Assembly (NCBI GenBank): GCA_944323445.1
Contig: CALUSM010000017.1
Coordinates: forward strand, 1-53,479
Reading direction: 5' to 3'
DNA length: 53,479 nucleotides
Source of the DNA: an uncultured Bacteroidales bacterium
GTDB taxonomy: Bacteria > Bacteroidota > Bacteroidia > Bacteroidales > UBA932
Shown here: positions 1 to 53,479 of the stretch, piece after piece
How positions within the stretch are numbered: position 1 is the first letter of the stretch
How the letters are laid out: every line of letters starts with the position of its first letter
Notes under the pieces: generated by a model
What the model was told of the DNA's origin: nothing
The model's input: only the letters and a program-made list of their open reading frames with translations
Databases searched by the model: none
Position numbers and translations under genes: made by a program

Positions 1-46
1 CAACTTTTTGGAACTCAGATAGATGCGCGGAATGCGCCGCCGGTTA

Positions 47-79
47 TGGGGTGCCGTCTCTTGCACAGAAACGGCACAT
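47..79. repeat. Palindrome 1a of a mirror-loop pair
   Basis: The 7-bp arms GTGCCGT (51-57) and ACGGCAC (71-77) enclose a 13-nt loop, CTCTTGCACAGAA. The flanks are TGGG on the left and AT on the right. The second copy at 201-233 has the same arms and the same flanks in the same orientation, but its loop is the exact reverse complement. The 27-bp cores are therefore perfect inverted repeats of each other while the outer bases are direct repeats. Confidence 0.85.
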
Positions 80-98
80 CTGCAATTAATCATTGACG

Positions 99-129
99 CA
101 AAGCTAGTTAAAAATCGCGTACTGTCAAA
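99..129 (-). promoter_or_regulatory. Leftward promoter between the two palindromes
   Basis: On the minus strand, TTTG (129-126) is followed by 19 nt and then TAGCTTTG (106-99). This is an exact match to the Bacteroidota sigma-A consensus TTTG-N19-21-TAnnTTTG, and one of the best -33/-7 pairs in the window. It points off the left edge, so its gene is not visible. It lies inside the segment bounded by the inverted 27-bp repeats 51-77 and 205-231, and would point toward pncB if that segment were inverted. Confidence 0.6.
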
Positions 130-200
130 ATAATCTGACAAAATTGACAGAATCCATAATGGTCCGCGGCGGAAGTCACTGACCGGCAGCCTCTTTGCCC

Positions 201-233
201 TGGGGTGCCGTTTCTGTGCAAGAGACGGCACAT
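201..233. repeat. Palindrome 1b of a mirror-loop pair
   Basis: The arms GTGCCGT (205-211) and ACGGCAC (225-231) and the outer bases TGGG and AT are identical to those of the copy at 47-79. The 13-nt loop TTCTGTGCAAGAG is the exact reverse complement of the other loop. A further half-arm, ACGGCAC, lies at 261-267. The sequence from 234 to the pncB promoter shows no ORF or other structure I can name. Confidence 0.85.
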
Positions 234-316
234 TTTATATACACATAATGCACGAGCGCTACGGCACCGAAACGACTTTTAGAGTTTAAAGATGACCAAA
301 CTTGGATAATTCATCG

Positions 317-324
317 TATATTTG
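317..324 (+). promoter_or_regulatory. pncB promoter -7 box
   Basis: TATATTTG matches TAnnTTTG. No convincing TTTG/TTG element sits 19-21 nt upstream. Transcription would start near 330, only a few bases before ATG 336 and about 20 before ATG 351. This makes 351 a serious alternative start for pncB. Confidence 0.55.
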
Positions 325-335
325 TCTGCTCAAAG

Positions 336-1556
336 ATGAAAAACAGGACTATGAAGCAGATTATAACCCATTTCACCGACGATGACCTTTACAAATTTAC
401 GATGTGCTGCGCGGTGATTGACAACTTCCCAAGAGCTCAGGTAAAATACTCATTTACAGACCGTGACAACACTGTCTATCCGGATGGTTTCGCCGACGAG
501 CTGTCCAGGCAGATTGCTGCTCTGGACGATGTGGTCATCACTCAGGACGAGATAGACTTCATGCAGCGCAGGTGCAGCTATATTCCGGGATGGTTCTACA
601 ACTATCTGAAAGGCTACCGCTTCGACCACCGCTGGGTGCAGGTGCGGCAGGACGCGGAAGGACATCTGGAGATAGACATCGAGGGCAGTTGGGCGGACAC
701 AATCCTGCTGGAGGTGAAGATTCTGGCCATAATCTCGGAGCTTTACTACATGTTTACCGGCGAGTACCGTAAATTTGACTACAGCGCCTATTATGACAAA
801 ACCTACCGCAAGGCGGAGCGTCTGCTCGAGGCCGGCTGCATCTACAGCGATTTCGGAACCCGCCGCAGGGCTTCCTTTGAGGCTGAGGATACGGTAGTCA
901 GGGCTATGAAAGACTGTGCTGGAAGCCGCAGATGGCCCGGCAAGTTCGTCGGCACGAGCAATGTCTATCTGGCGATGAAGTATGACCTGATTCCGGTCGG
1001 GACGATGGCCCACGAGTTCATCTGCGCCATCGGAGGCATGTACGGTCCGCAGATGGCCAACCACATAGCCATGGACTGCTGGCGCAACACCTTCCGCGGC
1101 GCCCTGGGCACCTTCCTCTACGACAGCTTCGGCTGGGATATTTTCAGCCTGAACTTTTCGGAGGACTTCGCCAACCTGTTCAAAGGGCTGAGAGTGGACA
1201 GCGGGGACAACCGCGAACAGCTCATGCGCATAGTGGACAAGTACCGCTCCCTAGGCATCGACCCGCGCACCAAGCAGGTGATATTCAGCAACGCCCTGGA
1301 CGTAGACCATGCCCTCGAGATCCAGAGTTACGCCACGGACTACTGCCAGCCGTCGTTCGGCATCGGCACCCACTTCACCAACGACTTCGACGGTGTCCAT
1401 CCCATGAACATCGTCATCAAGCTCATCGCCGCCAAGATCACCGAGTCCTGGTCTTTCTACAACGACACCTGCAAGCTCAGCGAGGACACCGGCAAGCACA
1501 CCGGCCGCCCCGAAGTCGTGAAGCGCTTCATGCAGGCCCTGAACATCCAGGAATAA
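336..1556 (+). CDS. pncB: Nicotinate phosphoribosyltransferase
   Basis: Converts nicotinate, PRPP and ATP to nicotinate mononucleotide in the Preiss-Handler NAD salvage pathway, in the cytosol. The 406 residues match the usual length of the bacterial PncB family. The N-terminal segment ITHFTDDDLYKFTM is the characteristic family opening. GTMAHEF, with His226, is at the expected place of the phosphorylated histidine, followed by a glycine-rich stretch. RVDSGD and the C-terminal IGTHFTND contribute to the phosphoribosyl site in the family. ATG 336 is given as start, but ATG 351 (MKQIITHF) would begin almost exactly where family members do and leaves room for a short leader after the -7 box. Monocistronic; the stop is one base from the convergent nhaD stop. 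Confidence 0.95.
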   Translation: MKNRTMKQIITHFTDDDLYKFTMCCAVIDNFPRAQVKYSFTDRDNTVYPDGFADELSRQIAALDDVVITQDEIDFMQRRCSYIPGWFYNYLKGYRFDHRWVQVRQDAEGHLEIDIEGSWADTILLEVKILAIISELYYMFTGEYRKFDYSAYYDKTYRKAERLLEAGCIYSDFGTRRRASFEAEDTVVRAMKDCAGSRRWPGKFVGTSNVYLAMKYDLIPVGTMAHEFICAIGGMYGPQMANHIAMDCWRNTFRGALGTFLYDSFGWDIFSLNFSEDFANLFKGLRVDSGDNREQLMRIVDKYRSLGIDPRTKQVIFSNALDVDHALEIQSYATDYCQPSFGIGTHFTNDFDGVHPMNIVIKLIAAKITESWSFYNDTCKLSEDTGKHTGRPEVVKRFMQALNIQE

Positions 1557-1557
1557 A

Positions 1558-2922
1558 TTATATCAGCGAGACTAGGAATTGCTGCAGGATATAGACCGCT
1601 ATGCCGGCAAAGTAACCGAGCAGGGCGAGCAGGCTGACGTGCTTGAAATACCAGATGATATTGATGTTCTCGAGGCCCATCGCCACGACACCTGCGGAGG
1701 AGCCGATGATGATGATGCTTCCGCCGGTACCTGCGCAGTATGCAAGCATGTGCCAGAATGTTCCGTCCACAAGGAAGTTGGAAAGATAGGCCGGGTCAGC
1801 GGATGCAGCCAGGGCAGCGGCGTCGGGAATGGGGAACATACCCATGCTGGCCGCCACGAGAGCCGAGTTGTCGACCACGGATGAGAGCAAGCCGATGATG
1901 GTGCTGATGGCGTAGGCGTTGTGGACACCCTCATTGAGCCCCTCGGCCATGGTGCTGAGCACACCGGCAGTACCGAGAGCAGATACGGACATCAGGATAC
2001 CGAGGAGGAAGAGCACCGTAGGCATATCGAGCTGCTTGATGATTTTGGAAACCCTGTTCTTCAGCGACTCGGCGACCTCTTTCTTCTTCTTGTACATCAT
2101 ATCGGTGTATATCCACATAATGGCCAACGCGAACATTACTCCTATATAAGGAGGAAGTCCCACGACACTCTTGAAGACAGGGACTAAAATCAGAAGTACC
2201 ACACCCAATATCAAGATAGTGCGGCTCTCGCGTCCGGAGATGAAAGCAGGTCTGAAAGCCGCCTCCTCGTTGGTCTGCTGTTCCACTATCACACCTTTCA
2301 GGAACCTGGCGGCGATGGCCACCGGGATATACAGACAGATGAGACAGGGGACAATAAGGGACTTCATAAGATCGAGCGAGGTCACATTACCCTTCATCCA
2401 CAACAGGATAGTCGAAACGTCTCCGATAGGCGACCACGCACCGCCGCAGTTGGCGGCTATAACGATGATAGAGGCGAAAAGCCAGCGTTCCTTATAGTTT
2501 GTAATCATCCTCCGCAGGAGCATCACCATGACGATAGTCGTGGTCATGTTGTCCAGCACGGAGGACATCAGGAAAGTGATGGTGGCCAGCAGCCACAGCA
2601 GACGGGTCTTCTTCCGGGTAGTAATATGCTTTGTGATGACCTCGAAACCTCCGTGGGTATCGATGATGTCCACGATAGTCATGGCACCGATAAGAAAGAC
2701 CAGTATCTCACAAGTACTGCCTAAGGCACCGAGCAGGTCCGAGGATATCCTGGCATGGTCCAGGGACGGGTCGATGGATGTCGAAAAGAGGCTGAGAAGG
2801 CTCCACATCAGGCAGCAGAGGAGGAGCGCAACGGATGATTTATTGATGTTGATCCTGTTCTCCATGGCTATAAGCACGTAAGCCAGGATAAAGACCACAA
2901 CCAATATAACTGCAAGATTCAT
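1558..2922 (-). CDS. nhaD: NhaD-family sodium:proton antiporter
   Basis: A 454-residue polytopic inner-membrane protein with roughly a dozen hydrophobic segments. It matches the ion transporter superfamily members called NhaD, which exchange Na+ or Li+ for H+. Diagnostic stretches are GGAWSPIGDVSTILLW in the first half and VVDNSALVAASMGM plus GTGGSIIIIGSSAGV in the second: the two pseudo-repeat halves with conserved Asp, Asn and Ser in broken helices. The start is 33 nt after the folC stop on the same strand, so it is probably cotranscribed with folC. Nothing suggests a functional link to folate. The substrate is inferred from family only; other members of the superfamily carry anions, but the motifs favour NhaD. 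Confidence 0.88.
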   Translation of the reverse strand: MNLAVILVVVFILAYVLIAMENRININKSSVALLLCCLMWSLLSLFSTSIDPSLDHARISSDLLGALGSTCEILVFLIGAMTIVDIIDTHGGFEVITKHITTRKKTRLLWLLATITFLMSSVLDNMTTTIVMVMLLRRMITNYKERWLFASIIVIAANCGGAWSPIGDVSTILLWMKGNVTSLDLMKSLIVPCLICLYIPVAIAARFLKGVIVEQQTNEEAAFRPAFISGRESRTILILGVVLLILVPVFKSVVGLPPYIGVMFALAIMWIYTDMMYKKKKEVAESLKNRVSKIIKQLDMPTVLFLLGILMSVSALGTAGVLSTMAEGLNEGVHNAYAISTIIGLLSSVVDNSALVAASMGMFPIPDAAALAASADPAYLSNFLVDGTFWHMLAYCAGTGGSIIIIGSSAGVVAMGLENINIIWYFKHVSLLALLGYFAGIAVYILQQFLVSLI

Positions 2923-2955
2923 ATCGTTTTTAACTTTTTAGTTTTATACTTGTAA

Positions 2956-4335
2956 CTATTTTGTTTCAATGCTATTCTGCAGCGGAACGTCCGATTTCTG
3001 CAAAAAACGCGCCATTGCCTCCGCCACCACATAACTGCTTCCCCCTATGAACACTATGTCAGAAGTGCCCGCCTCGCTCATTGCCATATCCACAGCCTCC
3101 TCCACGCTCTCTACCGCAACGGAATCCACAGCACCTGCATCCGCCTTGCCCCTCTCCCTGCGGGAAGAGTCCACCAGATCCTTCAGCTTACCGGCCGGCA
3201 TGGCCCTGCTGCCCTGAGCCTGAGTGAAGATGTACTTAGCCTCGAGAGGCAGAAGTCCGCGGACCGCCTCCACATCCTTGTCCCCGGCCATACCGTACAC
3301 CATTATTATATGTCTGCCGGCGGCCTCGGCCTCCAGCTGCCGCATTGTCTCCGACAGAGCCTGAACATTGTGCCCTATGTCGCATATAACCTCCGGAGCC
3401 GTGCGGAGCCTCTCCCACCTGCCACGGAGACCGCTGACTGCCGCCGCATGCTCCAGAGCGTAGAGCACAGCTTCAGTGAAAGCGGCGTCCCAGGCTCCCA
3501 ATACATGAAGGGCGGTCATCACTGTCCGGATATTCCGCACCTGGCAGGAAGAGCGCAGGTCTGCCCGGGAAGCAATGTACTGCGGATCCGCGTCTTTCCC
3601 GCACAACTCACCGGAGCGGTACAGCCTGGAGCCGCACGATGAAGCGGTTTCCGCGGCCACTGCCTCCGCCTCAAGGGGCAGATCTCCGATGACCACCGGC
3701 ACTCCGGGCTTTATGATTCCGGCCTTCTCGCGGGCGATCTTTTCTATTGTATCTCCGAGGATATCCTTGTGGTCCAGACCGATGGAGGTGATGATGCAGA
3801 GCTCCGGCACGATGATGTTGGTCGAGTCCAGCCTTCCCCCCAGCCCCGTCTCGATAACTGCAATATCCACCCTTTCGCGGGCAAAATAGTCGAAGGCCAT
3901 GGCTGTGGTAATCTCGAAGAACGAGGGCCTGCGCTCCTCGATAAAGCTCATGCTGCGGGACATGAAATCCACCACATCCTCCTGCCCTATCTCCCTGTAG
4001 TGACGTCCGTCAGGCCCCTTTCCGGAGCTGACGACCCGTATTCTTTCCCTGAAATCCACCAGATGCGGCGAAGTGTACAGTCCCACCCTGCTTCCTGGAT
4101 ACCTGAAAGCCAGGGCAGAAGCCAGCATGTGGGCCACGGAACCCTTGCCGTTGGTACCGGCTATATGTATGGTACGCAGTGAATTGTGTGGATCTCCCAG
4201 GAACCGGGCGAAATCAGTCATACTTTCCAGACCGGGGTGATATCCCGAAACCCCTACCCGCTGAAACGAGGGGGCTATGCTGTAGAGCATCCGGACACAT
4301 TCCCGGTACCGGTTCTGTAGACTTGGGTCGGTCAT
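2956..4335 (-). CDS. folC: Folylpolyglutamate synthase / dihydrofolate synthase
   Basis: Mur-ligase family enzyme of 459 residues. It adds glutamate to dihydropteroate and/or folates, using ATP. The P-loop GTNGKGSVAHML is at residues 60-70, and the folate-binding and second ATP motif ETGLGGRLDSTN follows in the first third. The C-terminal Mur-ligase domain contains CDIGHN. The protein is slightly longer than the common 420-440 because of an insertion near residue 390, rich in Arg, Lys and Asp. Divergent from purL across 94 bp and upstream of nhaD in the same direction. Whether it has both activities cannot be read from the sequence, but no second FolC is in the window. Confidence 0.93.
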   Translation of the reverse strand: MTDPSLQNRYRECVRMLYSIAPSFQRVGVSGYHPGLESMTDFARFLGDPHNSLRTIHIAGTNGKGSVAHMLASALAFRYPGSRVGLYTSPHLVDFRERIRVVSSGKGPDGRHYREIGQEDVVDFMSRSMSFIEERRPSFFEITTAMAFDYFARERVDIAVIETGLGGRLDSTNIIVPELCIITSIGLDHKDILGDTIEKIAREKAGIIKPGVPVVIGDLPLEAEAVAAETASSCGSRLYRSGELCGKDADPQYIASRADLRSSCQVRNIRTVMTALHVLGAWDAAFTEAVLYALEHAAAVSGLRGRWERLRTAPEVICDIGHNVQALSETMRQLEAEAAGRHIIMVYGMAGDKDVEAVRGLLPLEAKYIFTQAQGSRAMPAGKLKDLVDSSRRERGKADAGAVDSVAVESVEEAVDMAMSEAGTSDIVFIGGSSYVVAEAMARFLQKSDVPLQNSIETK

Positions 4336-4359
4336 CGGTATTTTTTAAAATTTTGAGCG

Positions 4360-4392
4360 CAAAAATGGGAAATATTCTCAAGAATTAGCAAA
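4360..4392 (-). promoter_or_regulatory. folC promoter
   Basis: On the minus strand TTTG (4392-4389), 21 nt, then CATTTTTG (4367-4360), one mismatch from TAnnTTTG. It lies about 25 nt upstream of the folC ATG at 4335 and overlaps the purL regulatory region, so the two units are transcribed divergently from a 94-bp gap. Confidence 0.5.
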
Positions 4393-4400
4393 ATAATCTC

Positions 4401-4408
4401 TATTTTTG
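4401..4408 (+). promoter_or_regulatory. purL promoter -7 box
   Basis: TATTTTTG matches TAnnTTTG, 21 nt upstream of the purL ATG at 4430. No good -33 element is visible. No purine riboswitch-like fold is apparent in the short leader. Confidence 0.5.
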
Positions 4409-4429
4409 AACCCCAAATTCTAGAATATC

Positions 4430-7400
4430 ATGGTATACTTTTTCCGCTCCCCCGAGGGGCAAATCATAGCAGTCGATTCTCAGACAGCATTTTCTGCTGA
4501 AACAGCGGACACCCTCACATGGCTTTTCTCCGGTGCGGAGCTCCTTCAGGGCTCCACAGTGACCGGCACATTCATCGGTCCCAGGCGCGAGATGATTACG
4601 CCCTGGAGCACCGCAGCAGTGGAAATCACTCAGAACATGAACATTACCGGCATCGCCAGAATCGAGGAGTTCTTCCCTGTGCCCGAGGGCCGCTACGCCT
4701 CCGACACCGAGATACCCCACGACAAGATGCTACAGAGGATATACCACGGACTGGACGGCGACATTTTTGTCATCGACCGTCAGCCTGAACCCATCCGCTA
4801 CATCACTGATTTCGAAGCATATAACAAGGAAGAGGGCCTGGCTCTCTCCGAGGACGAGATCCAGTATCTCAAGGACCTCTCCGCCAAGCTCGGCAGACCT
4901 CTGACCGACAGCGAGGTATTCGGCTTCTCCCAGGTCAATTCGGAACACTGCCGCCACAAGATATTCAACGGCACCTTCGTCATCGACGGAGTGGAGATGG
5001 AAAGTTCACTCTTCAAGCTGATAAAGAAGACCTCTGCGGTCAATCCCGGCCGCATCGTCTCCGCATACAAGGACAACTGCGCCTTCATCGAGGGTCCCAA
5101 GCTCAGGCTCTTCCACCCCGCTGCGGCCGCCAAGCCCAGCTTCTTCAAGGAAGAGGAGGTCAAGACCGTCATCTCGCTGAAGGCCGAGACCCACAATTTC
5201 CCCACCACCGTAGAGCCGTTCAACGGAGCGGCCACCGGCAGCGGAGGAGAGATACGCGACCGTATCGGAGGCGGCAAGGGTTCCTTCCCCATAGCCGGTA
5301 CCGCCGTCTACATGACCTCCTACCCACGCATCGACAGCGGCCGCGAATGGGAGGCCCGTCCTCCCCGCAAGTGGCTGTACCAGACCCCTGCGGAGATTCT
5401 TATCAAGGCATCCAACGGTGCCTCCGACTTCGGCAACAAGTTCGGCCAGCCCCTCATCTGCGGCTCCCTCCAGACCCTTGAGCACACTGAACAGGATCCC
5501 GACGGCTCCGAGCGCAAGTACGGCTATGACAAGGTCGTGATGCTCGCCGGAGGTGTTGGCTACGCCAAGAAGGCCGACGCCGCCAAGGACCGCCCCTCGA
5601 AGGGAGACGACATCATCCTCATGGGAGGCGACAACTACCGTATCGGCATGGGCGGAGGAGCAGTATCCTCCGTCGCCACAGGAGAATATGCCAATTCCAT
5701 AGAACTCAACGCCATTCAGAGGGCCAACCCCGAAATGCAGAAGAGGGTCTACAACGCCATCCGCGCGGTGGCCGAGAAGGACCACAACTCCATCATCTCC
5801 ATCCACGACCACGGCGCCGGCGGACACCTGAACTGCCTCTCGGAGCTGGTAGAGGAAGTTGGCGGCGACATCGACATCTCCAGGCTGCCCGTAGGCGACC
5901 CCACCCTCTCGGACAAGGAAATCATCGGCAACGAGAGCCAGGAGCGCATGGGACTGGTAATGAAGAAATCCGACACCGAGGAGCTGCGCAGGATAGCCGA
6001 AAGGGAAAGGGCACCGTTCTACGTCATAGGCGAGGTCAGCGGCAAGGGCAATTTCACCCTCCGCGACAGCAAGACCGGCAACGCCCCCATCGACCTGGAG
6101 CTCAGCGATATGTTCGGCTCTACTCCCAAGACCGTGATGCACGGTTCCTCTCCCAAAGGAGGCGCCGACGGTCACGGAGGCTTCGCCCCGCTCAGGCAGA
6201 CTCCCGCAGGAATGTCTCCGGAAGCCCTTACCGAGGCCATACGCAAGGTGCTGATGCTCGAGTCAGTGGCCTGCAAGGACTGGCTGACCAACAAGGTGGA
6301 CCGCTCGGTGACCGGCCTGATCGCCTGCCAGCAGTGCTGCGGTGAACTTCAGCTGCCGCTCAATGACCTGGGAGTCACCGCCATCGGCTACGACGACCCC
6401 GAGGGCATAGCCGTGTCCATCGGACATGCTCCCGCCGCCGCCATGATAGACCCGGCCGCAGGTTCCCGCCTGGCCATAGCCGAGGCCCTGACCAACATCA
6501 TCTGGACTCCCATCCGCGACAACATCTACGGCATCTCCCTCAGCGCCAACTGGATGTGGCCCTGCCGCAACGAGGGCGAGGACGCCCGCCTCTACCGAGC
6601 CGTCAAGGGAGCCAGCGATTTTGCCATTGCCCTGGGCATCAACATCCCCACCGGCAAGGACTCCATGTCCATGACCCAGAAATATCCAGACGGGGAGAAG
6701 GTCCTCTCGCCCGGTACCCTGATTATCTCGGCCACCGGACAGAGCAAGGACGTGGGAACGACCCTCCATCCCGTGATGTCCCGCGACGAGGGCACCACCC
6801 TGCTCTACATTCCGTTCGTACCTATTATTAAAGGTGACGCCGCCTTCCCTCTGGGAGGCTCCGCCTACGCCTCCACACTCGGCAAGGTGGGCGCCAAGGC
6901 TCCCGACATCACCGACCCCGAATATTTCAAAACCTGCTTCAACCGCCTCCAGGATGCCATGTTCAACTCCATGAGCAACCCCGTCCTGGCCGGACACGAC
7001 ATCTCCGCCGGAGGCCTGATCACCACCCTGCTGGAGATGTGCTTCTCCAACACGGAGGGAGGCGCCGACATCGACCTCAGCGCCCTGGAATCCTCCGACA
7101 TCCTCCTCTCCGAGGTGCCGGGAGTCGTACTTCAGGTGAAGAATGCCGGCATGGACGAATTCCTCCGCAACCTCGGCCCCGTCAAGGCCTGGACCATCGG
7201 CCGTCCCGTTCAGAAGGGACGTACCCTGAAAGTGGTCTACGGTTCCGACAGCAGGACATTGTCCCTGGACATCGATGCCATGCGCGAGAGCTGGTACCGC
7301 ACCTCCTGGCTCCTGGACAGCCTCCAGACTCCCAAGGAGCTGGCCGCCGAGCGCTACGCCAACTACAAACGGCAGCCTCTGGAGTTCTCCTTCCCCAAGC

Positions 7401-43252: not shown

Positions 43253-43255
43253 AAT

Positions 43256-44308: not shown

Positions 44309-44337
44309 GCAGAACAGTCCGGTCTGTATGAGCAGAG

Positions 44338-44696: not shown

Positions 44697-44711
44697 AATA
44701 GAAAAATTTCA

Positions 44712-44719: not shown

Positions 44720-44732
44720 CACTCACTCACTT

Positions 44733-45506: not shown

Positions 45507-45522
45507 CCGCCGGCCGGGAAAG

Positions 45523-45605
45523 ATGAAACTTTTCCATAACGCACCTCTGACAATCAACGATTTGCACCTTCAAAAATTAAACTTTTCATGTTGTGATTAA
45601 ACTTT
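45523..45605 (+). promoter_or_regulatory. Putative operator: three AT(T/G)AAACTTT boxes
   Basis: ATGAAACTTT at 45523-45532, ATTAAACTTT at 45576-45585 and ATTAAACTTT at 45596-45605. The last two are exactly 20 bp apart (about two helical turns). The middle box ends just before the -33 element and the last lies between -33 and -7 of the barrel gene's promoter. This fits binding of a dimeric regulator on one DNA face; the adjacent LuxR-like gene is the obvious candidate. Confidence 0.5.
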
Positions 45606-45621
45606 ATCCCCTCCATTTTTG
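45591..45621 (+). promoter_or_regulatory. Promoter of the outer-membrane barrel gene, overlapping a hairpin
   Basis: TTG (45591-45593), 20 nt, then CATTTTTG (45614-45621). The bases 45603-45628 form an 8-bp hairpin TTTATCCC / GGGATAAA with a 10-nt loop that includes most of the -7 box. ATG 45640 follows after 18 nt. Confidence 0.5.
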
Positions 45622-45639
45622 GGATAAAAACCGATTACC

Positions 45640-47757
45640 ATGAAAGCCATTTTTCTCACCGTTCTCAAAACTTCAGTCCTGCTGCCCCTCCTATGCATAT
45701 CCGCTCTGCCGGCATATTCCCAGGACACCTCCGAATCCACACTCCAGGACACCCTGACCCTCGAAGAAGTCGTCGTCATCGCCCGCCGCACCCGCCATCA
45801 GGCCGACGGCTACACGGTGAACCTGCGCTCCTCCGACATTGTCCGGGGCAAGAGCACTTCGGACGCCCTTGTATTCCTGCCGGGTGTCAGCCGCCAGGGC
45901 TCCGTCTACAGAATCAACGGCATCGATATCAGCGAGATCTACGTGGACGGAATGAAACTCACGAGTTTCGACGAGCTGGACAACATCCCGGCGGACAGAA
46001 TCGACAAGGTCAAGGTCAATTACCTCGCAGGACTCAACCAGAACGCCTCAATCACCGGCGGAACCATCGAAATCACACTGAAACGTATTCCGGAAGGCGG
46101 CTACTCCGGCAGCGTCTCCGCCATAGGAGGCTATGCCAATTACGGAGGTCTGGGCAATGCCGGTATGCTCTTCCAGGCCCGCTACGGCGCAACCAGCATC
46201 TACAACAGCCTCACCGTCAACGGCGGAGCAATGAAGGAGCGCGGCCTGCAGAGTACCCTGACCTCCGGCGGCGGGCTGCTTTCCGAGAAAGACGAGCTAA
46301 CCTCTGCCCCGTTCTGGGGAATCCAGGACCGCCTCAGCATCAATCAGGAAATCAACAGAAGGAACAATATCGGGTTCAGCTACTATGCAGGATGGAGCCG
46401 CTCCTCCACGGAGACCGCAACACGCGAAGGCACCGTCTCCACCTCCATGCTCAACAACAGCGGACGCCTGACTCAGGAGGCCACTCTCAGATATTCCTCG
46501 GTATTCAATGACCGAGGGACATCCATGACCGTCACCGCCGACTGGCTCAACCGCAGCCTGTCCACCGAATACCTCTATACATCGGAACAGGAACCGTCCC
46601 GGCAGCAGGAGCAGTCCGCGCAGGAGAGCCGGGACAACATGCTGAAACTGGCAGCCGATTTTTCCGACCCTCTGTCAGAAAAATTGGAACTGGAATACGG
46701 TGCCTCGGTCCAGTACATCACCTCCACGTATGCTCCCGAAACCGCGTCAGAAGGATTCCTGAGCAGCAGCCTCCCTACCCGGACCAGGGCCTTTACCCCG
46801 CTCGCCTATGCCTCCATCTCCGGAAAATTGTGGAGAATCCAGTACAGCGCCGGCCTGAACCTCCAGATGAACTGGATAGAGTACTCCCCTCTCGACGGCA
46901 GCGGCAGCCCTTCCAGAAACATCCAGTGGGGCATCAACCCCTCCGTCCAGTTCCGCATGCCGTTAGACAGCCGCGGACGTTTCTCCATGAGACTGAACTA
47001 CAGGCATCAGCTCGACAACATCCCGTATGACGCCATCTCCACTACCGTCCGCTGGACCGACCCCTGGCATTATTCCGTCGGCAATCCGGACCTGGTCGCC
47101 CCTACCCGCGACCGCATCATGCTCGGCCTCTCCCTTTTCGGGGACATCCTGACATTGCAGGGTTCCTACACTCATTCCCGCAACTCCATTTACTGGGACA
47201 ACCGCACCGACCCCGGCTCTCCCGACATTTTTTACGAGACCCCTGTCAATCTCCCCCATCGCAATTCCTACGGCCTCAACGCCGAACTCAACCTCAACCC
47301 TCTCAAGCCGTGGCGGATAAAACTCTCCGCCGAATACACCTTCAACGTGGAGAACAGTACCATCGGCGGGATTACCTACCGCGGCACGAACACACACCAG
47401 TTCTACATGCTCCTCAACCAGCTCAGCTTCAAGGGCTGGGGAACGGTCATCAACGCAGTCTACGAACCGACGTTCCGTACCTTCGGGTACACCTACCACT
47501 CGGTGTACACGGTCAATCTCCAGCTGTACAAGACATTCCTGGACGGTCGGCTCAGGGTAGCCCTGTCCGGTAACGTCGCGGGAAAACGCCGCCGGATAGA
47601 CCGTACGGTCGGCGACCGGATCATCACCCACGCCTACACGACACCTGCGCAGACCGCCACGCTGTCCGTCTTCTGGTCTTTCTCGGGAGGCCGGAAAGTC
47701 AGTGTGCGCAGGGTCAGCGGTAGCCAGAGCTACGAGGAGATCGTCAATGAACGGTGA
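45640..47757 (+). CDS. TonB-receptor-type outer-membrane beta-barrel protein
   Basis: The 705-residue exported protein has a signal peptide (to about residue 28, ALPAYS), then a TonB-box-like LTLEEVVVIARRTRHQADGYTV, a plug domain (VRGKSTSDALVFLPGV, INGIDISEIYVDGMKL, VKVNYLAG) and a C-terminal barrel of alternating strands ending FWSFSGGRKVSVRR. The N-terminal carboxypeptidase-like domain common in SusC relatives is absent, and no SusD partner follows. This places it with the outer-membrane-beta-barrel (OMP_b-brl_3) group. It may export or import an unknown ligand. The gene is preceded by a membrane-anchored regulator; its 3' end overlaps the convergent ATPase gene by 28 bp. Confidence 0.85.
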   Translation: MKAIFLTVLKTSVLLPLLCISALPAYSQDTSESTLQDTLTLEEVVVIARRTRHQADGYTVNLRSSDIVRGKSTSDALVFLPGVSRQGSVYRINGIDISEIYVDGMKLTSFDELDNIPADRIDKVKVNYLAGLNQNASITGGTIEITLKRIPEGGYSGSVSAIGGYANYGGLGNAGMLFQARYGATSIYNSLTVNGGAMKERGLQSTLTSGGGLLSEKDELTSAPFWGIQDRLSINQEINRRNNIGFSYYAGWSRSSTETATREGTVSTSMLNNSGRLTQEATLRYSSVFNDRGTSMTVTADWLNRSLSTEYLYTSEQEPSRQQEQSAQESRDNMLKLAADFSDPLSEKLELEYGASVQYITSTYAPETASEGFLSSSLPTRTRAFTPLAYASISGKLWRIQYSAGLNLQMNWIEYSPLDGSGSPSRNIQWGINPSVQFRMPLDSRGRFSMRLNYRHQLDNIPYDAISTTVRWTDPWHYSVGNPDLVAPTRDRIMLGLSLFGDILTLQGSYTHSRNSIYWDNRTDPGSPDIFYETPVNLPHRNSYGLNAELNLNPLKPWRIKLSAEYTFNVENSTIGGITYRGTNTHQFYMLLNQLSFKGWGTVINAVYEPTFRTFGYTYHSVYTVNLQLYKTFLDGRLRVALSGNVAGKRRRIDRTVGDRIITHAYTTPAQTATLSVFWSFSGGRKVSVRRVSGSQSYEEIVNER

Positions 47758-49118
47758 CACTCATCAAGAGATTTTTTCGAAAGAAATCTTTTCAGCAGGA
47801 AGGTAAGAAAATATGGGAAAGTATAGAACTTGCCATTATAACCGATGTTCTTATACCCAAGCTTTATACCATACTTTATGTCCGGATACCGCACGTCCTC
47901 AGTCAGTTTGTTAAGTGAAGGTGTCGCTCCGTCTTTTGCCTTAACTTCTACAGGAACCAGCGAATCCGCATCTCTGATAAAGAAATCCATTTCAAGGGAA
48001 GGCTTGTCACTGTTATAGTAGAAAAGCCTGTATCCCTGCTTTACAAGCATATCACCCACGATATTTTCGTAAACGGCACCTTTATATGTTCCGAGATTCC
48101 TATTTGCCCTCAAATCTTCCTGAGCCTCTTCGTCAAGCGATGCAATCAGCAGACCGGTATCCTTGAAATATATTTTATAAAGTTTCGGATCATAATTTCC
48201 TTTGAGAGGCAGTTCCGGATGATTCAAACAGTAACAGATATTGATTACCCCTGCATCCGCAAGCCATTCCACACAACCTATGTAATCTCTGTTTCTCGCA
48301 TTTTTTGCTATCTTGGTTATCTGGAACCGTTTATTCTCCTTTGAAAGAAAGGTTGAGACATGATTATATACCGCTTTGACCTTGGCCTTGTCCAGTCCTT
48401 CCACATATTTGGTAATGTCTTCCTCATAATCCTTAAGCAGCTGTTTCTGAATAGCCAAAGTCCCGCTGAAATTCTTATTCGCCACATAGGTGTTTACAAC
48501 TTCCGGCATCCCCCCTACTATGACATAATCCCGGAAAATATCCAGCAGTACTTCCATCTGCAAAGATGAAAGAGGTTTAAGTTCCAGCATGTGGCCGTAA
48601 AGTTCCTCCACAAAGTCTTCTGAATATCCTTTGGCCCAGAGAAATTCCTCGAAGTCCATGGAATGCATCTCGTAATCATCCTTGTAACCGACACTGTTGG
48701 ATTCTATTTCCCTGTAATTTATCCCCATAAGAGAACCGGAACAGATGACGTCGAACCGACCGTCCAGCTTAAAAAATTTCAAAGATGTCGCGCAATTGGG
48801 ACAGGCCTGCAGCTCATCGAAGAAAAGGATTGTCTCTCCTGGTATAAACTTGAAATCGGGATTCAGTAATGACATATTTTTAAGAATGGCATCGACCTCA
48901 AACCCGTCATCGAAAATACTGCGATATTTTTTCTGCTCAATAAAGTTAATTTCGATAAAACTGGTATAATTCCGACTCGCAAACCACTCTACGGAGCGTG
49001 TTTTTCCGACCTGTCTGGCCCCTTTGATGATAAGAGGCTTACTATCAGGATTATTCTTCCAGTCAATCAGATATGAATCAATCTTTCTTTTCAGTAGGCC
49101 ATCCATGTTTTCTGTCAT
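47730..49118 (-). CDS. AAA_14/DUF4143 ATPase
   Basis: 462 residues. An N-terminal AAA_14 ATPase with Walker A PLIIKGARQVGKTRSVEWF and the Walker B-like ILFFDELQACP, then CSGSLMG. A C-terminal DUF4143 nuclease-like domain follows (GAVYENIVGDML, LEMDFFIRDADSLVPVEVKAKDG). The family is widespread, often mobile or in variable loci, and of unclear function; links to toxins or chromosome maintenance have been proposed. The gene is visibly AT-richer than its neighbours, uses codons such as ATA and TTT freely, and stands alone. The last 14 or so residues (KKSLDECHRSLTISS) read partly through the antisense of the barrel gene, so the native stop may have been lost. Confidence 0.88.
   Translation of the reverse strand: MTENMDGLLKRKIDSYLIDWKNNPDSKPLIIKGARQVGKTRSVEWFASRNYTSFIEINFIEQKKYRSIFDDGFEVDAILKNMSLLNPDFKFIPGETILFFDELQACPNCATSLKFFKLDGRFDVICSGSLMGINYREIESNSVGYKDDYEMHSMDFEEFLWAKGYSEDFVEELYGHMLELKPLSSLQMEVLLDIFRDYVIVGGMPEVVNTYVANKNFSGTLAIQKQLLKDYEEDITKYVEGLDKAKVKAVYNHVSTFLSKENKRFQITKIAKNARNRDYIGCVEWLADAGVINICYCLNHPELPLKGNYDPKLYKIYFKDTGLLIASLDEEAQEDLRANRNLGTYKGAVYENIVGDMLVKQGYRLFYYNSDKPSLEMDFFIRDADSLVPVEVKAKDGATPSLNKLTEDVRYPDIKYGIKLGYKNIGYNGKFYTFPYFLTFLLKRFLSKKSLDECHRSLTISS
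47769..47792 (+). terminator. Weak terminator for the barrel gene, inside the ATPase gene
   Basis: Hairpin AGATTTTTT-CGA-AAGAAATCT (47769-47789; one G-T pair) followed by TTT. It starts 12 nt after the barrel-gene stop and lies within the 3' coding end of the convergent ATPase gene. Confidence 0.4.
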
Positions 49119-49131
49119 TATAAATTCACTG

Positions 49132-49139
49132 CAAATATA
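49132..49139 (-). promoter_or_regulatory. Promoter -7 box of the AAA_14/DUF4143 gene
   Basis: TATATTTG on the minus strand ends 13 nt before ATG 49118. Confidence 0.5.
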
Positions 49140-49142
49140 ATG

Positions 49143-49196
49143 ATTTCACATTATCCGGCATTAAACTACCTTAAGATTTCACACTTTCCGCCATAC
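49143..49196. repeat. Imperfect 21-bp direct repeat upstream of the ATPase gene
   Basis: ATTTCACATTATCCGGCAT at 49143-49161 and ATTTCACACTTTCCGCCAT at 49176-49194 agree at 16 of 19 positions and are 33 bp apart (about three helical turns). They could be an operator or a mark left when the AT-rich gene arrived. Confidence 0.45.
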
Positions 49197-49286
49197 TTTA
49201 TGTATCATTTTCACAATTTCTGCTATCTTCTTAACCGGATTGTGATAACTAAAAAATCTTTATACTCGCAGTACATTATTTTATTG

Positions 49287-49294
49287 TATTTTTG
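49287..49294 (+). promoter_or_regulatory. Promoter -7 box of the propeller lipoprotein gene
   Basis: TATTTTTG matches TAnnTTTG and ends 18 nt before ATG 49313. Confidence 0.5.
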
Positions 49295-49312
49295 TTATAA
49301 AATCCGCATTGT

Positions 49313-50377
49313 ATGAAAAAGAATCTCATCCTCCTGCCGGCAGCGCTGATATTTGCTGCCTCCTGCTCCGGAACATCCGGTGACATTCCTACTTACACAG
49401 AGTCCGAATTTGCCTCCGCATCCGCTGAAATCTCGATGGCAGACCTCGGGGAACGGGGGTACGAAGTGGAGAGGATCCTTCTCTCGGGCGCTGAGGAAAG
49501 CGGACGGCTGCTCGTTTCGGATGCAGTAGACGTAGTATTGACCGAGGACAATATTTTCATGCTTACGGCAGATATGAAGGTGCTGAGGCTGTCCAGGGAC
49601 GGCAGACTGAAAGGTTATGTCGGAGTCAAGGGCAATGGTCCCGGGGAATACCTGTTTGTCAATGACATCTTTCTCGCTCCGGACGGGAACGGCATCTGTA
49701 TCAATGATATAATGAAAGGCGTCCTCACCTACGGACTGGACGGGACATACATCGGGACCCGGGAGCCAGAGACTCAGGCACAGATGGCCTACACCTTGGC
49801 CGACGGTCCATACATACTGGAATCCGTACAGACAGTGCTCGGCAACGAAGCCGACCGGCTCCGCATCCGGGACACCAGCGGCCGTCAGACAGGCAGGTTC
49901 GCCAACCATCTGCTTTTCCGGCTCACTCCCAAGGCCAATGTCACTGCATATCAGGAATACAAGGCCCTCTTCCAGAACGGGGACGGAGAGATCATCTTCC
50001 ACCAGATGAGCACCGACACCATATTCACCGTGCATCCGGAAGTCCCGTCCATCGAACCGAGGTGCTGCTTCACCTTCCGGCATGGAATCGCACAGAGCGA
50101 CCTGTCCTCATTCACTGATGTCTGGAACGATATCTACTTTATCTATGACTACGCCGAGGATGCTGCCTTCCGCTACGTCACCCTCATGGAGCCCGGCCAG
50201 CAGAAGCAGCTCTACCTGATCGACAAGACCGACAGCACCATCTACCGCTCGGCACTCACCTTCCCCGGCTCAGAGGAAGCCTTCTACCCCAAGTGGCAGT
50301 ACGGTGACCAGCTCATCGACTACTGCCTCACCGATGACGAGGAGCCCTGCCTGACGATACTCCGTTACAGAAATTGA
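49313..50377 (+). CDS. Six-bladed beta-propeller lipoprotein
   Basis: 354 residues with signal peptide and lipobox FAASC (lipidated Cys18). After a short spacer come propeller blades of the Bacteroidales '6-bladed beta-propeller' family. The marker GNGPGEYLFVNDIFLAPDG (the GxGPGEY turn) is followed by LTYGLDGTYIGT and repeated D-G turns, ending CLTILRYRN. Such lipoproteins face the periplasm or surface and occur in many copies per genome; their ligands are unknown. The convergent gene at 50564 is a paralogue of the same fold but on the other strand, with two palindromes between them. Confidence 0.82.
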   Translation: MKKNLILLPAALIFAASCSGTSGDIPTYTESEFASASAEISMADLGERGYEVERILLSGAEESGRLLVSDAVDVVLTEDNIFMLTADMKVLRLSRDGRLKGYVGVKGNGPGEYLFVNDIFLAPDGNGICINDIMKGVLTYGLDGTYIGTREPETQAQMAYTLADGPYILESVQTVLGNEADRLRIRDTSGRQTGRFANHLLFRLTPKANVTAYQEYKALFQNGDGEIIFHQMSTDTIFTVHPEVPSIEPRCCFTFRHGIAQSDLSSFTDVWNDIYFIYDYAEDAAFRYVTLMEPGQQKQLYLIDKTDSTIYRSALTFPGSEEAFYPKWQYGDQLIDYCLTDDEEPCLTILRYRN

Positions 50378-50395
50378 CGGCCAGCTTCCTCTCCG

Positions 50396-50433
50396 GAAGG
50401 TGCCGGGAAAACACCTGATGTGTCGGCACCTTC
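50396..50433. repeat. Palindrome 2a of a mirror-loop pair
   Basis: Perfect 10-bp arms GAAGGTGCCG / CGGCACCTTC with an 18-nt loop (GGAAAACACCTGATGTGT). It begins 19 nt after the propeller gene's stop and could act as a rightward terminator, though only a few T's follow. Confidence 0.75.
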
Positions 50434-50501
50434 TCGATTTAGTTATATTCAGAACCGCATTAGAGGTACTTCTCGCCCATATTGCCTGAGATACCCATAG
50501 G

Positions 50502-50539
50502 GAAGGTGCCGACAGAAGCTGTGTTTCACCGTCACCTTC
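50502..50539. repeat. Palindrome 2b of a mirror-loop pair
   Basis: Arms GAAGGTGCCG / CGTCACCTTC (one mismatch) with an 18-nt loop (ACAGAAGCTGTGTTTCAC). Reversed and complemented, this loop agrees with the loop at 50406-50423 at 11 of 18 positions, including AAACAC, whereas in direct orientation only 6 agree. The 68 bp between the two palindromes show nothing recognisable. Confidence 0.75.
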
Positions 50540-50563
50540 CAGCATTGCGTTTTGCGTATATAA

Positions 50564-51742
50564 TCAATCTTTCAGCCGGGCGAGCATCAGCACATCGTTG
50601 TCCGTAGGCTGCAGGTCGGAAAGAATCGCCCGGACCCGCTTCGCCGCAGAACCGGTCAGCATCCCTTGCTCCAGGGCCTGGGGAGCCGCGACTAAGAACT
50701 CCTCCGCCGGAATGCTCTGTACCAGATAACCGCACTGGATAGAATATCCGCCCTGATACCCGCCGAGAAAGTCATTGAGAATCTCAGTAGGATAACTTAC
50801 GCTCTTCCCTGACTTCAAGTCCGTAAGCACATTGGCCACAGGTACTCCGATGATTATGCGCGGCATGTATTCCTGCATTTCCGTCAGGACAGAGAGCACT
50901 TTTCCCGGCAGCAGGGTACTTTTCAAGGAAGAGCCGCTCTTCAATGACCGGGTATTGACAGTAAACACCGGCCGCAGCACATCCCCTTCCAGGACATACA
51001 GGGTATCGGGCCAGTTGCCGCTGGACTCGAACGACACATCCAGCGCACCGTCGATATTGAAAGACGTACCCACGAGAGTATTGGACGGAGTCCGGGTGCG
51101 CTGCCTTCCGACCTCGGGTATCTCCCAGAGGATCTTGCCCGAAAGGTCCTGGCACCAGGCTATAGCCGGACATGAATCCTCCTCATAAGGCACCGCCATG
51201 ACCGTCAGCGTGCCGGCCCGCCCGTCCACCATGAAACTGGCCGAGCCCGCTCCGAACTCGTCCATCGGCTTATATGCTAACGGGACAGTCCCCAGATATT
51301 TCCCCGAAGTCAGGTCATAGGTCTTGATACGGTCCGCCGCATCCATTATCCACACCCTGCCGCCGTCCTCGTCCACAAAAGTCTGAGAGGAATTCAGATA
51401 CTCCCCTGGGCCGCGCCCGAGATGCCCCACGTTACAGATGAACCTTCCGGTATGCCGGTCGAACACCCTGACAGGAGCCTTGCTCAGAATGGCCTGAGCG
51501 TCTTTGACCAGATAATTTTTCGTAATGAGCACTTTCGCCGCGGTGAATGCATCCAGAGTATCGCTGTCCAGCGCGATGAATTCCGGCTCCGCAGCCAGGT
51601 TCGAGAACACCAGAGTATCCTGTCCCTCCGTCATCTGAGAATAGTCGAAAGTCACCAGACCTCCCTCTCCGAGCCCTCCCCTGCCGCAGGAGGCTGCCAG
51701 GAGCACCGCCGTTGCAGCCAGGAAAAATTTTACCGATTTCAT
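50564..51742 (-). CDS. Six-bladed beta-propeller lipoprotein
   Basis: 392 residues with signal peptide and lipobox LAASC (lipidated Cys19). The family turn GHLGRGPGEYLNSSQTFVD and blade motifs IKTYDLTSGKYLGTV and DGRAGTLTVMAV show the same propeller type as the gene at 49313, though overall identity is low. The C-terminal extension (TGSAAKRVRAILSDLQPTDNDVLMLARLKD) is a helical tail seen in the longer members. It lies 20 nt after an unrecognised gene in the same direction, probably cotranscribed with it. Periplasmic or surface location; ligand unknown. Confidence 0.82.
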   Translation of the reverse strand: MKSVKFFLAATAVLLAASCGRGGLGEGGLVTFDYSQMTEGQDTLVFSNLAAEPEFIALDSDTLDAFTAAKVLITKNYLVKDAQAILSKAPVRVFDRHTGRFICNVGHLGRGPGEYLNSSQTFVDEDGGRVWIMDAADRIKTYDLTSGKYLGTVPLAYKPMDEFGAGSASFMVDGRAGTLTVMAVPYEEDSCPAIAWCQDLSGKILWEIPEVGRQRTRTPSNTLVGTSFNIDGALDVSFESSGNWPDTLYVLEGDVLRPVFTVNTRSLKSGSSLKSTLLPGKVLSVLTEMQEYMPRIIIGVPVANVLTDLKSGKSVSYPTEILNDFLGGYQGGYSIQCGYLVQSIPAEEFLVAAPQALEQGMLTGSAAKRVRAILSDLQPTDNDVLMLARLKD

Positions 51743-51762
51743 ATTTTTGCCATTGAATCTAT

Positions 51763-52785
51763 TTACTTACCCCTGCGGTCAAATCGATATTTCCCGCGTT
51801 CCGTCCTGTCCGTGAAAAACCGGAAAGAGGCTATCTCCCGGTCAAAGACATGAAGCGATGCCGTAACCTCCGGATATTTTTTAATATGCACCCTCTCCAT
51901 CGAGAGCGGACAGAAAGCGAATATACGGTCCGTTCCCTGCACATCGAGCAGCCGGCACATACTGTTGAAAATTACAGCATCCCCCGATTTCAGGACAATA
52001 TTGAAAAATGGAAGATCCTCCTTGCCGCATTTCACCTCCACTTCAAAACAAAGCAGCGCCGGGTTGATTTCGACCTCGTCGCTTACCGGGTCGAAATGAA
52101 TGTCCGAGAAGAAGCCGCTGTAGTGTCGATAGTCTTTAGATTTGCTGAAACATATCTCTCCGCCCACCGGTGTCATGACTTTCAGACAGGCGGAATAAGG
52201 GACAAACGCCTCCTCCACCGGCATTGTCAGACGGAAAAATTTAAAGCAAGCCCACTCTTTCCACTGCAGAGGGACGTCACCCTCCTCAATGATTCCTATA
52301 TCATAGAGAACTCCGGGCTCAAGCATCCCGCTGCTCACCGGAACAGTCAGTGTCAGCTTGTCCTCCTCCTGTCCGACCGGCATGGAATAATCCACATCCA
52401 TCTTACAGACGATCTTCCGTGGAATCTCCTCCGTCGCCTTCTTAGAGGCCTCGCTGTACATATCCAGGATCTTCCGATACGAGGATCGGTCCATCTTTAT
52501 GGACTCGGACACCTGGCCTTCCTTATATTCCCATTCATTGAACCGACTGACGTCATGCTGATAAGCCGCGCAGTCCTCGTCCTTGAAAATCGCTACTCTT
52601 ATCCTGACAGTCTTCTCCTCATTGAGGTCCCCGTTACTAAACACCTCCTGCTGAAGAGTTATACCCTTGATGCTGTCATCCCAGATCAGGCTTTTGAATC
52701 TCGAGTCCGGATTCGGCTCATGGCCGTCCTTGCAGACATCGACAAGGGATGACGGGTGATAAAAAAAGTATCTACGGCTGTCCAT
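51763..52785 (-). CDS. Unrecognised cytosolic protein
   Basis: ATG 52785 (MDSRRYFFYHPSSLVDVCKDG) gives 340 residues. The frame extends to a GTG at 52833, but that codon lies upstream of the -7 box and is rejected. No signal peptide or membrane segment. The N-terminal half is mixed and charged (KGITLQQEVFSNGDLNEEKTVRIRVAIFKDEDCAAYQHDV). The middle has SSGMLEPGVLYDIGIIEEGDVPLQWKEWACFKFFRLTMP. The last third is beta-rich with several Cys. It ends RGKYRFDRRGK. I recognise no family. It precedes the propeller lipoprotein gene by 20 nt. Confidence 0.7.
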   Translation of the reverse strand: MDSRRYFFYHPSSLVDVCKDGHEPNPDSRFKSLIWDDSIKGITLQQEVFSNGDLNEEKTVRIRVAIFKDEDCAAYQHDVSRFNEWEYKEGQVSESIKMDRSSYRKILDMYSEASKKATEEIPRKIVCKMDVDYSMPVGQEEDKLTLTVPVSSGMLEPGVLYDIGIIEEGDVPLQWKEWACFKFFRLTMPVEEAFVPYSACLKVMTPVGGEICFSKSKDYRHYSGFFSDIHFDPVSDEVEINPALLCFEVEVKCGKEDLPFFNIVLKSGDAVIFNSMCRLLDVQGTDRIFAFCPLSMERVHIKKYPEVTASLHVFDREIASFRFFTDRTERGKYRFDRRGK

Positions 52786-52813
52786 AGGCTGATTGCTGTT
52801 TGTGTGGTTAGTG

Positions 52814-52821
52814 CAAATATA
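52814..52821 (-). promoter_or_regulatory. Promoter -7 box of the unrecognised gene
   Basis: TATATTTG on the minus strand, 28 nt upstream of ATG 52785; the palindrome pair begins 18 bp further upstream. Confidence 0.5.
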
Positions 52822-52839
52822 GTAATTTTCCACTCAATA

Positions 52840-52885
52840 TTGCCGCAACGGCACCGTTTTGCGGAATTCTCTGCCGTTGCGGCAA
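52840..52885. repeat. Palindrome 3a of a mirror-loop pair
   Basis: Perfect 14-bp arms TTGCCGCAACGGCA / TGCCGTTGCGGCAA with an 18-nt loop (CCGTTTTGCGGAATTCTC). It lies between divergent genes, so it cannot be a simple terminator. Confidence 0.8.
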
Positions 52886-52944
52886 TGTCTTTTCTGCACA
52901 ACCGCTGTCACAGGCGCTCTGGACGGCATCGACCCGCCGCCTCC

Positions 52945-52990
52945 TTGCCACAACGGCAGCAAATCACGCGAAACACTGCCATTGCGGCAA
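52945..52990. repeat. Palindrome 3b of a mirror-loop pair
   Basis: Arms TTGCCACAACGGCA / TGCCATTGCGGCAA (two mismatches), again with an 18-nt loop (GCAAATCACGCGAAACAC). Its reverse complement agrees with the loop of the copy at 52840 at 11 of 18 positions. The right arm supplies the TTG used as -33 element by the promoter of the gene at 53033. Confidence 0.8.
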
Positions 52991-53011
52991 CAGAATTTTT
53001 CCGTACTTTTG
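52982..53011 (+). promoter_or_regulatory. Promoter of the right-edge gene
   Basis: TTG (52982-52984), 19 nt, then TACTTTTG (53004-53011), a full consensus match, 21 nt before ATG 53033. The -33 element is part of palindrome 3b. Confidence 0.6.
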
Positions 53012-53032
53012 TCTGCAGATAAAGCATCACCC

Positions 53033-53479
53033 ATGGACGAGAGACTTCTGATAAAATGCGACAGCAGCATCTACGCCGACAACATTTCGAGCGTACTGGA
53101 AGCCAACAATATCACTGTGCGCAGGCACGACGATGAAAGCACTGACCGGCGGACCGGAGCGCATGGTCCTGACTCCGGCACCGCACTGTACGTACCCGAC
53201 AAGGACTACGAAAAAGCCCTGGAGATAATCGCCCCCATCGCCGACAGGATGCACGAAGCCATCCCCTTCTGCCCCAAATGCGGCAGCGACAACGCCATAC
53301 CCATAGCCCCTTCCCGGTACACCACCGCGGTTATAGTCGCGTCCGTCATCCTGGGACTCGGCTCAGGCTTCTATCCCTGGTGGTCATTGCTGCTCGGCAT
53401 TAAGTCCGGCACCGGCAGCATCATCGCCGGGATATTCCTGCTGCTCGCCATCTTCATGGCCATGTCCACCAAATACCTG
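53033..53479 (+). CDS. Membrane protein with DUF2007-like domain and zinc ribbon (3' end beyond window)
   Basis: Open from ATG 53033 to the edge (149 codons, no stop). Residues 1-75 resemble the small ACT-like DUF2007 'putative signal transducing' domain: LIKCDSSIYADNISSVLEANNITVRRHDD, then ALYVPDKDYEKALEII. A CPKCGS half-zinc-ribbon follows at about residue 84, then two hydrophobic segments (AVIVASVILGLGSGF and SIIAGIFLLLAIFMAM). The arrangement is frequent in small Bacteroidota membrane proteins of unknown function. The C-terminus is not seen. Confidence 0.7.
   Translation, partial: MDERLLIKCDSSIYADNISSVLEANNITVRRHDDESTDRRTGAHGPDSGTALYVPDKDYEKALEIIAPIADRMHEAIPFCPKCGSDNAIPIAPSRYTTAVIVASVILGLGSGFYPWWSLLLGIKSGTGSIIAGIFLLLAIFMAMSTKYL

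Follow-up and report, generated by a model that had tools for sequence, protein, structure and literature searches.

Contig CALUSM010000017.1 of an uncultured Bacteroidales bacterium (53,479 nucleotides, hereafter the window; contig C17 of a metagenome-assembled genome, or MAG, that we refer to as own) carries three twin palindromes, pairs A, B, and C. An initial annotation had proposed that these make up one genome-wide family of REPIN-like elements, each a doublet of inverted repetitive extragenic palindromic (REP) sequences and a non-autonomous partner of a REP-associated tyrosine transposase (RAYT). By alignment, pairs B and C fall within two repeat families as ordinary copies, and we consider it probable (about 0.72) that these are REP-like families with RAYT-like source loci on contigs C39 (family B) and C42 (family C), a Y1 protein helping to copy or insert their units. 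Pair C with its linker aligns with an array upstream of the RAYT-C gene on C42 (78%, E = 6.5e-24), and pair B with a family B array on C22 (74%, E = 1.3e-18). The initial interpretation is partly supported overall: families B and C do adjoin RAYT-like genes, but no partner gene was found for A and movement by the protein is a step that we infer; several families (B, C, D, and a separate A) replace the single one, and the unit belongs to a fixed-pitch array instead of an inverted REPIN doublet.

Three RAYT-like genes adjoin their own palindrome families

The MAG comprises 2,291,593 bases in 59 contigs and is 88.9% complete; its closest loci, at 99% identity, are in Candidatus Coprenecus merdigallinarum and two uncultured Bacteroidales MAGs, which points to Candidatus Coprenecus as its genus. 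The initial annotation had suggested looking for Y1 genes in the genome, and they are present: a PF01797 (Y1) search returned five matches at E ≤ 0.001, with four above the cut-off, and a profile built from those five finds seven RAYT-like Y1 transposase genes, one each on C39, C42, C48, C5, and C1 and two on C8. The C1 gene is divergent, forming a separate branch of a protein tree with 90 distinct rows, each covering at least 200 profile positions. We note that the RAYT-like protein of a Fibrobacter MAG (L131) nests among rumen Bacteroidales in this tree, a placement that suggests horizontal transfer or a binning error.

The RAYT-like proteins are ~305-320 amino acids (aa) long, with one of 383 aa, and have a conserved C-terminal extension. 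Across 35 aligned relatives, residues H51, H53, Y108, and N112 never vary, and neither do E228, D254, C258, D262, and R304 in the C-terminal part; by eye, in six rows, the Y motif reads Y[IV][LS][RK]N[PA]xHH, and there is no W at the expected place. An AlphaFold model (pLDDT 88.6, pTM 0.89) has as its best PDB match 4er8, the Escherichia coli TnpA-REP with a REP hairpin (E = 5.5e-6), followed by IS608/ISDra2 TnpA, and 4er8 is also the sole match at E ≤ 1 in a PDB sequence search (E = 0.0011). By model and alignment, a Y1 HUH fold with the HUH pair and one catalytic tyrosine is present in these proteins. For the C-terminal half, the structure-comparison list contains no convincing PDB match, a Pfam scan of five of the proteins gave no helix-turn-helix (HTH) match, and five have no match among the PHROGs phage families. 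The sole family match of all five is NCBIfam REP_Tyr_transpos, at 25-46 bits; because these scores lie below the NCBI cut-off of 80 bits, such proteins are likely missed in annotation.

Family B palindromes on C39 begin 14 bp after the RAYT-B stop codon and are followed by two more at 106 bp. On C42, three family C palindromes lie directly upstream and three directly downstream of RAYT-C, with four further copies beyond a neighboring gene. On C48, family D copies immediately follow RAYT-D and recur past a neighboring gene on the other side. When gene-flanking repeats are compared with the three palindrome types of the window, as the initial annotation had advised, B and C match, but for A no gene was found. 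Each of the two C8 genes is bracketed by inverted-ended elements of ~180-200 bp, the C5 gene has weak repeats only, and the C1 gene has a 27-nt GGGGTGCG-like repeat on both sides, the two being 78% alike. The elements at the C8 genes (L003, L005, L116, and others) are of a second, AT-rich type, ~180-200 bp in length. Families B and D have a common hairpin frame, AAGGTG-N24-CACCTT, to which D adds an outer CACCTTCGG/CGGAAGGTG, and from this shared frame the two families are probably related.

Across 64 distinct loci from this genus and other Bacteroidales, a strong inverted repeat was found in 49/125 flanks (38/64 loci) of the main protein group, as against 49/836 flanks of other open reading frames (ORFs), the control being long ORFs of the own genome only; the odds ratio is 10, with orthologues included, so that the rows are not independent. 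The divergent protein group has a strong inverted repeat in 6/50 flanks. Each type of RAYT gene occurs in a single copy that has been inherited at one locus, which for RAYT-B is shared by four species, and these genes are under purifying selection, with dN/dS (nonsynonymous to synonymous substitution) ratios of 0.05-0.08 for RAYT-B (four species), 0.03-0.10 for RAYT-C (three pairs), and ~0.10 for RAYT-D (one pair). This combination of gene family, private palindromes, fixed locus, and purifying selection is as expected of a RAYT system.

Palindrome pairs of the window

An inverted-repeat search detected 18 inverted repeats in the window, of which pairs A, B, and C are the first three listed: 51-77/205-231 (A; arms of 27 nt, 100% inverted identity, 127 nt between), 50395-50438/50497-50540 (B; 77% inverted identity), and 52840-52885/52945-52990 (C; 80% inverted identity). 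All three twin palindromes reported initially are thereby borne out, and all six palindromes fold, with z-scores of DNA folding against shuffles from -2.3 to -6.5. Their features are as follows.

51..77, + strand: pair A palindrome 1, 27 nt (inverted-repeat search, folding z -3.6)
78..204, no strand: pair A inner segment (window 51-208 recurs at C1:213121, 98% identity)
205..231, - strand: pair A palindrome 2, an exact inverted copy of palindrome 1
50397..50432, + strand: pair B palindrome 1, family B, 36 nt, scored +
50433..50502, - strand: pair B linker, 70 bp, matching the family linker at 45/70 positions in the - orientation and 21/70 in the other
50503..50538, - strand: pair B palindrome 2, scored -, 106 bp after palindrome 1
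52840..52885, - strand: pair C palindrome 1, family C, loop scored -
52886..52944, + strand: pair C linker, orientation read by eye
52945..52990, + strand: pair C palindrome 2, loop scored +, 105 bp after palindrome 1

The opposite loop orientation described within pairs holds for all three; it is clear for A (inverted identity 27/27 versus direct 20/27) and weak for B (28/36 versus 23/36) and C (37/46 versus 33/46). Pair B lies between the 3' ends of two convergent genes and pair C between the starts of two divergent genes. Pair A is at the contig start, ahead of any ORF reaching 100 aa and before a nicotinate phosphoribosyltransferase gene, and its left neighbor falls outside the contig. Pair C (window 52801-53020) is flanked by two sequences that we take to be divergent Bacteroidetes -7 boxes (TAnnTTTG), and with these boxes on either side, the number of units would alter the spacing of two promoters. 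The cores said to be common to the pairs, GGTGCCG and ACGGCA, are present as strings, but the pairs represent separate families with different linkers. A single family for all three was rejected: the linkers differ, and the A, B, and C palindromes are recovered separately.

Units repeat at a fixed pitch

Pattern counts in the own genome are 31 for B, 45 for C (at most one mismatch), and 98 for D, with none for a reversed control pattern. A hairpin of 34-36 nt and a conserved, oriented linker of ~70 bp make up the unit of B and C, 105-106 bp in total, and arrays contain from one to five of these; the family D unit is 117-118 bp, with two mini-palindromes 38-39 bp apart. The pitch is fixed in each family, at 106 (B), 105 (C), and 117-118 bp (D). 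In a sample of 798,912 bases of the own genome, family B has 10 loci (one single, four double, and five triple; spacing 106 bp in 13 cases and 105 bp in one) and family C has 13 (four single, five double, three triple, and one quadruple; 105 bp in 13 cases and 104 bp in one). Multi-palindrome loci outnumber single ones, at 9/10 for B and 9/13 for C; the initial annotation had proposed such a count for doublets, and neither of the outcomes that it named as refuting was observed. Before counting, 6/16 B loci were dropped, either as D-type or lookalike (C1:207299, C10:32, C3:10585, C3:89810, and C4:8354) or as a chance match (C42:3512), as were six D-type hairpins that end the C40:6668 cluster and the 11/24 C loci matched only with two or three mismatches.

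Neighboring palindromes are mostly direct: 18/23 direct and 5/23 opposite in family B, and 10/14 direct, 2/14 opposite, and 2/14 of ambiguous orientation in family C. Inverted neighbors are therefore a minority, although 5/11 two-palindrome loci (B 3/6, C 2/5), including the window pairs, are opposite. Scoring of B orientation and linkers skips D-type loci and adds contigs C15, C16, C18, C22, C34, and C37 from outside the sample. Most scored B linkers match the family linker at 40-70 of 70 positions, with a consensus trained on rows that include some D-type lookalikes, and in family B arrays, two palindrome forms and two linker forms alternate. A GTAG/GTGG foot was found in 1/30 B-pattern palindromes (six of the 30 being D-type) and 0/27 family C palindromes. 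ORFs of at least 150 aa, by a rough call under which some are probably spurious, make up 86% of a sample in which 5/30 B-pattern, 3/27 C, and 14/45 D palindromes lie inside such an ORF.

Repeat numbers and cognate genes across the genus

The B, C, and D patterns were counted in 19 genus genomes, and the sole match of the control was one in G008 (B pattern). Intact RAYT-B is present in G000, G002, G009, and G014, with a frame-broken RAYT-B in G005; RAYT-C is present in G000, G002, G012, and G017; and RAYT-D in G000, G009, G014, and G012, and a contig end of G003 holds a 115-bp fragment of RAYT-D. The top four B counts (31-44) are those of the four genomes with intact RAYT-B, the remaining genomes having 0-29. 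The informative genomes are G012 and G017, and both fit a cognate gene-repeat rule: G012, with RAYT-C and RAYT-D and not RAYT-B, has 19 C, 47 D, and 0 B copies, and G017, which of these genes has RAYT-C only, has 34 C, 0 B, and 2 D. One-sided rank tests of cognate gene against count gave p values of 0.0007 (B), 0.039 (C), and 0.0026 (D).

Unit gain and loss between sister species

At the pair C site there is one palindrome in G003, two each in own, G014, and G005, and five in G002, and the flank-to-flank distance is 54 bp (G003), 159 bp (own, G014, and G005), or 474 bp (G002), in steps of exactly 105 bp. The loop of the first palindrome is reversed in G005 relative to own and G014. At C8:16179, palindromes at 105 bp pitch number one (G003 and G009), two (own and G005), three (G014), and at least four (G002, at a contig end); the flank distances in G009 and G005 deviate from whole units by 8 and 49 bp.

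An element of ~280 bp with B units occupies C8 ~62229-62508 in own and G009, and the site is cleanly empty in G014, G003, G005, and G030. The alignment covers nine relatives; G012 and G007 are uninformative there, and G013 and G017 carry another element, which is a copy of the AT-rich ~180-200 bp type. The right end of the B insert (L063) puts TTTG ~21 bp upstream of the -7-like box of the next gene, and the empty allele is without this TTTG.

The pair B site has the doublet in own and G009 and a remnant in G005, whereas in G014, G003, and G002 it spans ~1.58 kb with an extra gene and a palindrome remnant. The extra gene (site at window 50377-50564; relatives L237, L239, and L240) is presumably tryptophan-synthase-like; the own genome is without it at this site, and three sister species have it.

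Family A

Four family A palindromes were found, at three places (window 1-240, C1:213121, and C46:45), all within ~300 bp of a contig end. The copies are nearly identical, which together with their position fits a repeat that has multiplied recently and interrupts the assembly. No partner RAYT-like gene was found for pair A in this incomplete MAG, and a blastn search for family A in relatives, against the stretches of DNA retrieved rather than whole genomes, matched own-genome loci only. A pattern scan of IMG/VR with family A gave 0 matches; a looser pattern gave many chance matches and was discarded.

Mechanism and alternatives

We propose that a Y1 protein, encoded by a single-copy gene inherited at a fixed locus, would recognize its own hairpin in single-stranded DNA, nick it with its tyrosine, and so help copy or insert units at new intergenic sites; the arrays would then gain or lose whole units, and a palindrome could flip inside its frame. 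Binding, cutting, and moving of hairpins by the protein, and this origin of units and flips, are our interpretation of the patterns described above. More tentatively, and with some doubt, we speculate that a distinct RAYT-like lineage with an extra C-terminal domain runs a fixed-pitch REP system, in which hairpins stand ten helical turns (105-106 bp) apart on a conserved directional linker, whole units are gained and removed, palindromes flip in frame, and several independent families coexist in a genome; between divergent promoters, as at pair C, the arrays would act as species-variable spacers.

Several observations weigh against the main reading, that of REP-like families with RAYT-like source loci. 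The Pfam cut-off on whole proteins is passed by only 1/5, with weak scores, and for 2/7 genes (C5 and C1) the flanks hold no clear palindrome family. Presence of RAYT-B also goes with non-cognate counts (p = 0.0019 for D and 0.0069 for C), so part of the signal reflects shared descent, and G030 was scored as gene-less though outside the RAYT gene search. In G003, 29 B copies occur and RAYT-B was not found; C copies number 128 in G014, 55 in G005, 41 each in G003 and G007, and 23 in G009, where RAYT-C was not found. These C exceptions do not fit the cognate rule unless the gene was lost in assembly; in G014, contig C42 ends inside a C array where RAYT-C is expected, but nothing comparable accounts for the others. 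The C8 B insert is larger than palindrome-linker-palindrome, and the mobile unit may thus be composite. Finally, unit-wise gain and loss requires no transposase.

This last point is the core of an alternative that we regard as unlikely, under which the arrays would be passive tandem repeats that change in unit number by slippage or by recombination between units, with the RAYT-like genes merely sitting in repeat-rich places. Copy number shifting by whole units at two sites with no other change needed, the abundance of C where RAYT-C was not found, and the mostly uniform orientation of tandem copies are all in keeping with it; it leaves unexplained, however, the dispersal to many loci, the clean C8 empty site, and three different RAYT-like genes each adjoining its own family. 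That empty site also bears on the idea, to our minds distinctly unlikely, that B units travel inside a larger miniature element that has inverted ends of its own and is driven by another transposase. The ~280 bp insert seems by eye to have an inverted 15-mer at its boundaries (one end taken from own and the other from the G014 C26 copy, the repeat being degenerate in own), and the same spot holds a different element in G013 and G017, but this is a single resolved insertion with a degenerate left end, consisting mostly of B units and linkers.

Multiplication of the palindromes as transcription terminators or other cis-acting RNA or DNA signals is in our view very improbable. They fold well, pair B lies between convergent genes, and one terminator-like stem lies inside pair C, but no Rfam family reaches the gathering threshold in the window, terminator-like sites show no clear excess (4 found versus 2.4 expected), pair C is between divergent gene starts, and the linkers are conserved while copy number varies. 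The regular spacing of short palindromes also recalls CRISPR-like or integron-like arrays, a resemblance we can nearly dismiss, as the spacers are homologous copies of one linker rather than unique sequences and the families adjoin Y1 genes; no search aimed at Cas or integrase genes was made. We favor REP-like families B and C with RAYT-like source loci over these explanations.

Comparison with known systems

REPIN-RAYT systems are known mainly from Proteobacteria. The Coprenecus arrays provide several families in one gut-bacterial genus, with sister species close enough to catch unit gain, loss, flip, and insertion, and the strict pitch is a direct, testable hint at the arrangement of the protein or its DNA substrate. 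Pneumococcal BOX elements are built of modules, an inner one of which varies in number; going by that description, the Coprenecus arrays are alike in modularity and variable unit number and differ in sequence, host, and linkage to Y1 genes.

In the portions of two earlier studies that describe them, REPs, bacterial interspersed mosaic elements (BIMEs), and REPINs are short imperfect hairpins, mostly intergenic, tandem or paired, and in many copies, and the gene for TnpA-REP (RAYT), a Y1 HUH protein, is present once, next to the repeat family that belongs to it, with several families per genome (PMC6006769, PMC8266576). Families B, C, and D of Coprenecus likewise consist of mostly intergenic hairpins, tandem or paired, in many copies, with a Y1 gene beside its own family. 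Unlike REPs and REPINs, B and C have no GTAG/GTGG foot, and whereas a REPIN is two inverted REPs, their units are mostly direct, at fixed pitch, on a conserved oriented linker; the proteins are also longer than TnpA-REP (~305-320 aa), with the conserved C-terminal extension. The Coprenecus families are not textbook REPINs.

The GTAG foot is also missing in subclass 2.6 and class 3 TnpA-Y1, according to the relevant passages of PMC6006769. Subclass 2.6 is described there as mostly from Bacteroidetes, with 'atypical secondary structures' beside the gene and copies elsewhere in the genome, and its Table 1 entry gives a median of 179 aa, the W motif WQ, and the Y motif YIH[QN]NP (PMC6006769). For Bacteroidetes, this part of the survey mentions the atypical structures beside genes and says no more. 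The Coprenecus system resembles subclass 2.6 in its Bacteroidetes host, its lack of a GTAG foot, and its structures beside the gene and elsewhere, but is set apart from the Table 1 description by its length of ~310 aa, its Y[IV][LS][RK]N[PA]xHH motif, and its lack of the W; compared by eye, this combination of length, Y motif, and missing W matches no row of that table (PMC6006769).

The TIRYT group, or subclass 2.1, is characterized in the same source by HTH-bearing C-terminal tails and terminal inverted repeats (PMC6006769). Measured against this description, the Coprenecus proteins differ in that the five scanned have no Pfam HTH, and families B, C, and D are hairpins rather than simple terminal repeats; they are alike in the long C-terminal extension, the inverted-ended elements that flank the C8 genes, and the GGGGTGCG-like repeats on both sides of the C1 gene.

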